This document shows, piece by piece, positions 60,652 to 62,928 of a DNA stretch of 64,000 bases. Origin of the DNA: an uncultured Clostridia bacterium (GTDB lineage: Bacteria; Bacillota; Clostridia; Oscillospirales; Ruminococcaceae); assembly GCA_947625615.1 (NCBI GenBank), contig CANQPB010000002.1, positions 1 through 64,000 of the forward strand, read 5' to 3'. Numbering within the stretch: the stretch's first letter is position 1; each line of letters opens with the position of its first letter. The translations under genes and the position numbers were made by a program. Below the pieces are notes generated by a model. It was not told the DNA's origin. It made no database searches and worked only from the letters and a program-made list of their open reading frames with translations.

Positions 60652-62928
60652 TCAGTCGACAGTCTTCGGCACTACAACGCAGCCGGCAACGGTTTTCGGC
60701 GCGTTTTTGAGAATCTCTTCTCTTGAAAACTTCTTTTCGGAAAGCTCGTCCGCCCGAAGCGCCATTGCTTCGTTCGGGTCAACGGTCAGCTCGTCCTGAA
60801 TGTCCGGCATGGCCTCAACCATAGAAATGATATCCGCCATCTCCTTTTCATATCCCTCAAGCTCGCTGTCGTCGATTCTTAAGCGGGACAGCTTTGCGAT
60901 ATGTCTGATGTCAATATCCATACTATTCCTCCGATTGTTTTTTGTATCATTTATAATACTCAAAAATTGCGATTCGTCAATAACCTCAATTCCGAGTTCT
61001 CTTGCCTTGGTAAGCTTCGAGCCGGCGTCGTCCCCCGCAAGGACGTAATCCGTCTTCTTGGAGACGCTTGATTTAACGGTGCCGCCGTTTCTTTCGATTA
61101 TCGCCTGGGCCTCGTCGCGCTTCATTCCGGGAAGCGTTCCGGTGATGACAAACGTCTTTCCAGAAAATACGTCGGAGACGGCCACGCGCTCGTATTTCAT
61201 ATTCACGCCGATGTCTCTGAGTTCGCTTATCATCTGCCTCATGTGGGGCTCGGAAAGCGCCTCCGTCACCGATTCTGCGGTGAGGCTTCCGAAGCCGTCG
61301 ATAGCCTCGATATCCTCTTTAGAGGCGGCCAGAATGCTGTCCATGTCGCCCAGCCTGTCGCATAAAAGCTTTGCCGAAGCCGAGCCGACGTTCTTGATAC
61401 CGAGGCCGCAGAGCAGCCTGTCAAGGGAGTTGTTTTTCGACGCCTCAATGGCGTTGATAAGGTTTTCCGCCGATTTCAGCTTATATCCCTCAAGCCTGAG
61501 AAGATCTTCGGTTTTAAGCCTGTAAATATCGGGTATCGACCTTATCAGTCCGCAGTCGTAAAGCGCCTTTGCCTTTTCGGGGCCGAGGCCGTCGATGTTC
61601 ATGGCCGGCTTTGAGGCGAAATAGATAATTCTGCGCAAAACCTGCGCCGGGCAGTTTATGTTGGAGCACCTGAGCGCGCTCTCGCCCTCGTCTCTTATGG
61701 CTCTGGCGCCGCAGACCGGGCAGGTGTCGGGGAGCTTAAAGGGCTCGCCCTCGCCAGAAGGCTTTGCGACTCCCAAAACCTCGGGGATTATATCCCCAGC
61801 CTTTCTTACGGTGATCTCGTCGCCTATTCTTATTCCGCGCTCGTCTATAAAGTCCTGGTTGTGTAAAGTCGCGCGAGAAACGCTTGTCCCGGCGAGCAAA
61901 ACGGTGTCGAACACCGCCACGGGCGTTATTACGCCGGTGCGGCCGACGTTTACTTCTATGTCCCGAAGCTTTGTTACCTTTTCTTCCGGCGGGAATTTAT
62001 AAGCGACAGCCCAACGCGGGGTCTTTGCGGTCGAGCCTATCTGCTCTCGAGCTGAAAGGCTGTCGAGCTTGACGACCACCCCGTCTATGTCATATGGGAG
62101 TTCAAAGCGGTTCTCCCCTATTTTTCTAATGCATTCCTCAATTTCCTCATACGTTCTGACGAGCGTATATTTCGGTATTACCTTGAAGCCCTGCGACTTC
62201 ATGTAGTCGAGGGTCTCCTTATGAGATGTAAAGCTTCTGCCCTCTACGCGCTGCAAATTGAAGCAGAAGATATCGAGCTGCCTTTTCGCTGCGATTTTAG
62301 GATCCTTCTGCCTAAGTGACCCCGCGGCCGCGTTTCTCGGATTTTTAAAGGGCGTCTCCGAGCTAAGCTCCATTTCCTCCGTGAGCCTGTCGAATACGGC
62401 TCGGGGCATGTAAACCTCTCCCCTCACCTCTAAAAGCGGGAGCTTGTCCGAAAGCTCGAGCGGCACCGAGCCTATCGTTTTTATATTAGGGGTCACGTCC
62501 TCGCCGACAAAGCCGTCTCCCCGTGTTGAGCCGACAGCAAGAACGCCGTCGTGATATTCAAGCGAGCAGGAAAGGCCGTCTATCTTCGGCTCGACGGTGA
62601 AGCTCGGGAAATCGACAGCCTCCGAGATCCTGTCGAAAAAGTCTTTGACCTCTGAAAAGCTGAAAACGTCCTGAAGCGAGCCCATCTGCACCGCGTGATT
62701 TACCTTTGTAAACTTCGACACCGGCGCTCCGCCCACCCTCTGAGAGGGCGACGAGGGGCTTAAAAACTCGGGAAATTCGGTCTCTAAAGCCCTAAGCTCG
62801 CGCATCATGGCGTCGTATTCGTAATCTTCTATCTCGGGGTTATCCTCGACATAATATTTTCTGTTGTGATAGTTCAAAAGCCGGGTAAGCTCCTCGACCC
62901 TTATTTTAGCAGATTCTCTATCCATCAC
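60652..62928 (-). CDS. ligA-gatC: NAD-dependent DNA ligase fused to GatC
   Basis: Residues 1-669 are LigA: adenylation domain with KIDG ([16 protein letters not shown], Lys near 115), OB fold, zinc finger [24 protein letters not shown] near 404-427, helix-hairpin-helix and a C-terminal BRCT domain (~590-660). Residues 670-758 are GatC ([20 protein letters not shown], ending in [12 protein letters not shown]). Each half has its normal length, with no linker. No stop codon separates them, but GGAGG sits 6 bases before the ATG at 60919-60921, so GatC may also start separately. GatC must be available for the GatCAB complex; gatA follows at once. Confidence 0.93.
60928..60932 (-). promoter_or_regulatory. 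Internal ribosome binding site before GatC in the ligA-gatC frame
   Basis: GGAGG, 6 bases before the in-frame ATG (60919-60921) that starts GatC homology. It is coded as Arg-Arg in the short tail after the BRCT domain. Confidence 0.75.

Follow-up and report, generated by a model that had tools for sequence, protein, structure and literature searches.

GatC, a subunit of the Asp/Glu-tRNA amidotransferase GatCAB, is already known as one half of joined proteins, its partner being either AspRS, as in the bifunctional AspRS-GatC family (NF009460, PRK12820), or GatA (PMC7541841). The GatC-GatA polypeptide arose in M. smegmatis by loss of the gatC stop codon; according to the excerpt of PMC7541841, it was the main form on a Western blot, a band of free-GatA size made up about <10%, and mistranslation was raised. 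Here we analyse a natural frame in which the partner is LigA, the NAD-dependent DNA ligase. A LigA-GatC fusion was not found in the titles and abstract starts of the open-licence literature, and LigA as a partner of GatC is apparently an unreported variant.

A single stop-free frame covers LigA and GatC

The window is a 64,000-nucleotide stretch of contig C2 of genome G000, a 2.17 Mb draft in 58 contigs with 99% completeness. Its minus strand carries a 758-codon stop-free open reading frame at 60652-62928 that comprises a complete LigA, a short linker and a complete GatC. As written the frame starts at GTG 62928, and an ATG one codon on, at 62925, is equally possible. The features of the locus are as follows.

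62932..63633, minus strand: yunB-like sporulation gene, just upstream of ligA (PF09560)
60949..62928, minus strand: LigA part, predicted NAD-dependent DNA ligase, residues 1-660 (NF005932 and Pfam)
60922..60948, minus strand: linker, residues 661-669, intergenic or LigA tail in relatives (from where relatives' LigA ends, and low pLDDT)
60928..60932, minus strand: GGAGG Shine-Dalgarno of gatC, now within the open frame (anti-SD duplex energy -9.5 kcal/mol)
60919..60921, minus strand: gatC ATG, in frame with ligA, 6 nt from GGAGG
60652..60921, minus strand: GatC part, Asp/Glu-tRNA amidotransferase subunit C, 89 aa, plus TGA stop (TIGR00135)
59176..60636, minus strand: gatA, 15 nt past the gatC stop (PF01425)
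57712..59160, minus strand: gatB (PF02934, PF02637)

Both halves score above curated cut-offs, which confirms the first-pass annotation of this DNA in placing ligA and gatC in one stop-free frame. The LigA half matches NF005932 over residues 10-658 with 820.6 bits (cut-off 369), and PF01653, PF03120, PF03119, PF12826, PF14520 and PF00533 all exceed their cut-offs, giving the adenylation, OB, zinc finger, HhH and BRCT set usual for an NAD-dependent DNA ligase. The GatC half matches TIGR00135 over residues 672-758 at full length (52.2 bits, cut-off 47.1, profile positions 4-93 of 93) and also PF02686 (41.5, cut-off 23); for GatC, solved structures gave one match, 3h0l. At the junction, the gatC ribosome site GGAGG (60928-60932) and ATG (60919-60921) do lie intact and 6 bases apart, as had been noted from the letters. 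A LigA of 669 residues had also been proposed. LigA is indeed complete, but its last ~8 residues correspond to intergenic sequence or a variable tail in several close relatives, where LigA ends in SIIEE*, SIIED* or SIINE*.

In a predicted structure of the whole polypeptide (mean pLDDT 81.4), linker residues 663-671 fall below pLDDT 50, and we propose that the linker may be flexible and its sequence little constrained. The model was used for linker disorder alone; the GatC part is poorly predicted, so the model is silent on GatCAB assembly.

The window gene order ligA-gatC-gatA-gatB runs without interruption, placing gatC directly beside the genes of its partners GatA and GatB, and the whole setting from the yunB-like gene to gatB looks like an operon. 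The joining of a DNA ligase to an amidotransferase subunit had been called functionally odd; the unexpected partner stands, and the oddity is softened by this gene row and by the existence of a named AspRS-GatC fusion kind. A 440-codon open frame on the plus strand of the window, at 58216-59538, runs antisense to gatB and to the first part of the adjacent gene; it is presumably a shadow of codon bias.

GatC is probably essential in G000

When GlnRS is lacking, GatCAB is the route to Gln-tRNA. Among five genomes tested, none had a GlnRS above cut-off, and all five had AsnRS. G000 and two fused congeners, G010 and G023, each contain one GatC match in the genome. Judged from these gene contents, GatCAB is probably needed for Gln-tRNA here, and since the GatC of the joined frame is the only one found in G000, which has no GlnRS above cut-off, it is probably essential.

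The fusion recurs in three genera

The genus of G000 is represented by 31 genomes, of which 29 had a junction that was examined. The two outside this count are G022, where gatC forms its own frame (106 aa), and G021, whose LigA match ends at residue 521, at a contig end. The stop-free LigA-GatC frame is present in three of the 29: G000, G023 and G010, the latter two from separate bins. Each of the three gave one match to the whole fusion query, and no second LigA was found in them. One congener has a second LigA-like frame (G004:C24:37706-39724, 681 aa, 35% identical).

A family-wide GatC search (395 genomes, 188 matching at E <= 1e-6) turned up two more long frames among the matches listed, in G839 and G924. 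Both consist of LigA plus GatC and belong to two other genera of the family, bringing the LigA-GatC fusion to at least five genomes in three genera; the same in-frame fusion that the first-pass annotation proposed looking for in related genomes is thus found in G023, G010, G839 and G924. When 394 genomes were drawn from across the order, 191 matched, and the remaining long GatC frames among the matches listed were 13 AspRS-GatC frames and one in G041. Of 398 genomes drawn from across the phylum, 361 matched, and the GatC frames among the matches listed measured 253 aa at most.

Several candidates were rejected. Equal open-frame numbers at both halves had suggested G819, G851 and G880 as further fusions; in these genomes GatC occupies frames of 105, 108 and 112 aa, and the LigA frames inspected stop before gatC. 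G017, flagged as fused by a first script, has an ATGA overlap at the junction. At one further locus (L064, 5981-6351) ~370 nt separate ligA and gatC, compared with a few tens in neighbouring loci, owing to an insertion.

The ligA/gatC boundary shifts among close relatives

The closest clade, which we call the Lapin clade, contains 13 species, three fused and ten unfused. In eight of the ten unfused species the ligA-gatC gap is 15-29 nt and gatC has its own Shine-Dalgarno (the gap of G019 was measured to the start of homology, with a likely ATG 6 nt earlier); the remaining two are G016, with a gap of 2 nt, and G017, with an overlap of 4 nt. In G015, the nearest relative of G000, the junction has the same length and aligns without gaps, and an in-frame TGA lies 15 nt ahead of the gatC ATG. 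In G017, which groups with G023 in most trees, a net 2-nt difference places the ligA stop in the ATGA overlap. Both indels and substitutions have therefore occurred at this junction within the clade, so it cannot be said, as it had been from the window by itself, that only the ligA stop is gone. The gatA/gatB boundary is readable in 13 congeners that do not belong to the Lapin clade, and 8 of them have a 4-nt overlap there; all 13 species within the clade have gaps of 14-19 nt.

The pairing of G000 with G015 has a support of 100 in separate analyses, including a 50-gene tree drawn from 73 eligible genes. G023 with G017 is supported at 98 and 87 in one set of trees and at 99, 74 and 99 in a second set of three; in the 50-gene tree this pair reaches only 50, and G010, G023 and G017 together reach 97. 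Read off the trees by hand, the minimum is three changes: the fusion would have been gained either three times, or twice with one loss. With one origin in the genus, most trees require an additional step and one of three (first and second codon positions) gives a tie. On these sequence comparisons, the fusion comes and goes within the clade.

Start signals of gatC are retained inside the joined frame

A strong Shine-Dalgarno and a start codon persist inside the frame in four of the five fused species, with anti-SD energies of -9.3 to -9.5 kcal/mol. The three fused congeners keep the ATG with pairing across this range, and G839 keeps a Shine-Dalgarno of -9.5 with an in-frame TTG where the ATG stood. 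The fifth, G924, keeps the ATG and has a weak Shine-Dalgarno (-2.6; the unfused G990 of the same genus has -7.4). Besides this copy, G924 carries a GatC fused behind AspRS, and both copies lie in stop-free frames (L224, L231). The linkers of G023 and G010 are equal in length and have 3 of 13 residues in common by eye, two of which read through the Shine-Dalgarno. This suggests that the start signal rather than the linker is maintained, with the qualification that young fusions would look alike. RNA folding gave no sign that the internal Shine-Dalgarno of the fused species is more open than that of unfused relatives. The earlier suggestion that a fusion, free GatC or both could be made is supported insofar as the frame contains an intact internal gatC start.

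Fusion is rare at other boundaries

Other boundaries of the same operon in the genus were fused in none of 83 readable cases. With species taken to be independent, Fisher tests of ligA/gatC against these operon controls returned p = 0.017 in the genus (81 control boundaries entered, of the 83 readable) and p = 0.014 in the Lapin clade. Within the clade, 11 genomes contributed 1.23 Mb to 2200 ordered comparisons, in which 151 different same-strand boundaries with gaps of <=100 nt were represented by 549 instances. Fusion-type hits appeared at 2 of the 151. One is ligA/gatC, whose 15 hits come from pairing 3 fused with 5 unfused genomes; the second boundary produced a lone hit. Three further unfused genomes, G003, G019 and G007, yielded none at ligA/gatC, presumably owing to filters. 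The single hit elsewhere, between G019 and G007, looks by eye like a spurious antisense frame in the printed translation. G010, G023 and G000 had been picked as fused, and the comparison accordingly measures rarity at the other boundaries and is no unbiased rate for ligA/gatC.

Explanations for the joined frame

We favour a genuine, recurrent in-frame fusion of operon neighbours in which a dispensable ligA stop has been lost repeatedly and both LigA-GatC and free GatC would be made; from the sequence comparisons we give this reading a probability of roughly 0.62. Termination-reinitiation requires overlaps or very short gaps, and in the pairs tested ~20 nt almost abolishes it, while in E. coli a 14 nt gap lowered reinitiation by 40-80%, not to nil (excerpt of PMC10666635). 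On the strength of these pairs and of its strong Shine-Dalgarno, a gatC that begins 15-29 nt past the ligA stop should mostly start translation by itself, probably independently of nearby ligA termination, and loss of the ligA stop should then cost little. Such a largely dispensable stop could have been lost several times by substitution or small indel, and where the frames agree LigA would read through the old leader into GatC. Initiation at the ligA start would then give a LigA-GatC polypeptide of ~85 kDa, and initiation at the internal GGAGG/ATG would give a free GatC of ~10 kDa that we infer to supply most GatCAB, the joining of the two proteins being near neutral. Several observations count against this favoured reading. 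The spacings of G016 (gap 2) and G017 (overlap 4) suit translational coupling, the Shine-Dalgarno of G924 is weak, and folding gives no sign of a more open internal start. The M. smegmatis gatC stop-loss mutant, which according to the excerpt of PMC7541841 made mainly fusion, is a cautionary precedent for the output of free GatC. Moreover, with ligA/gatC the only convincing fusion of 151 boundaries, plain neutrality leaves the specialness of this boundary unexplained.

That specialness, together with recurrence in three genera, would fit a ligA/gatC boundary at which a selected dual-output gene has formed repeatedly, giving ligase-bearing GatCAB as well as free GatC and linking replication or repair with translational fidelity; we regard this as a long shot. 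The same two observations, along with the single GatC of G000, G010 and G023 and the weak internal Shine-Dalgarno of G924, could also speak for a committed fusion, with LigA-GatC as the sole product, a DNA ligase tethered to GatCAB, and selection favouring the joining for fixed stoichiometry or for coupling of replication to translation. We consider it distinctly unlikely, as the nearest relatives are unfused, the linkers are unconserved, four of the five species keep Shine-Dalgarno and start codon, and weak-SD G924 owns a second GatC. The joined polypeptide might instead be made and be minor, broken down or cleaved within the disordered linker, so that the cell uses a tailed LigA and free GatC. 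The low predicted order of residues 663-671 and the strong internal Shine-Dalgarno are in keeping with this, no protease site speaks for it, and we place it on the unlikely side. Six consecutive A ahead of the Shine-Dalgarno in G000 would suit a signalled event, such as a programmed frameshift or a protein-release signal, that ends LigA ahead of GatC; G010 lacks this run, G023 has a shorter one, and no conserved element was seen at the junction, making such an event highly improbable. Finally, the first-pass annotation had raised an assembly error or a lone exception, which is not borne out, as five genomes of three genera carry the frame. G000 is a draft in 58 contigs, and an error could in principle have erased its ligA stop, but the same architecture occurs with different linkers in four other genomes, and the ungapped alignment of the G000 and G015 junctions means that they differ by substitutions and not by a single indel. 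On this sequence evidence, error is very unlikely as the origin of the LigA-GatC frame.

Comparison with known GatC fusions

The LigA-GatC locus shows a gene fusion half-way, with the downstream start signals still inside the joined frame, close relatives unfused and several lineages fused. Annotation by longest frame may score these genomes as having no separate gatC, which matters for pathway predictions because genomes in which no GlnRS is found probably obtain their Gln-tRNA through GatCAB.

The ordinary ligA-gatC-gatA-gatB loci of relatives share the gene order of the window and, within the closest clade, also the gatC Shine-Dalgarno and start. They differ in having a stop between ligA and gatC or an ATGA overlap, whereas the fused frame has neither. 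The M. smegmatis GatC-GatA polypeptide is similar in that the stop of an operon neighbour was lost; according to the excerpt of PMC7541841, that polypeptide was demonstrated, was selected in the laboratory and has GatC at its N-terminus, while the frame described here is read from sequence, is natural, has GatC at the C-terminus and has LigA as partner. A possible natural GatC-GatA fusion occurs at L123 (G041:C23, 2290-2850), where by eye GatC continues in frame into an apparent GatA N-terminus.

A further likeness is to AspRS-GatC, in which GatC also follows, on the C-terminal side, a larger enzyme with a function of its own. There GatC is joined to a tRNA synthetase that acts in its own pathway, in contrast to the DNA ligase found here; the window frame has LigA at its N-terminus in place of AspRS, and NF009460 is not among the 12 families listed for it. 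By open-frame length and N-terminus, AspRS-GatC occurs in at least 13 genomes of the same order (L113-L122 and L124-L126, 694-785 aa). In six of these frames tested with HMMs, aspS was above cut-off in 6/6 and gatC in 5/6, and no frame tested reaches the cut-off of NF009460 itself (1379 bits). Unlike most LigA-GatC frames, none of the 13 AspRS-GatC loci has an ATG with a strong Shine-Dalgarno at the GatC start; in 2 of the 13, a GTG near that start has an SD-like energy at least as strong as -7. AspRS-GatC may thus represent a later stage of the process that LigA-GatC shows half-way.
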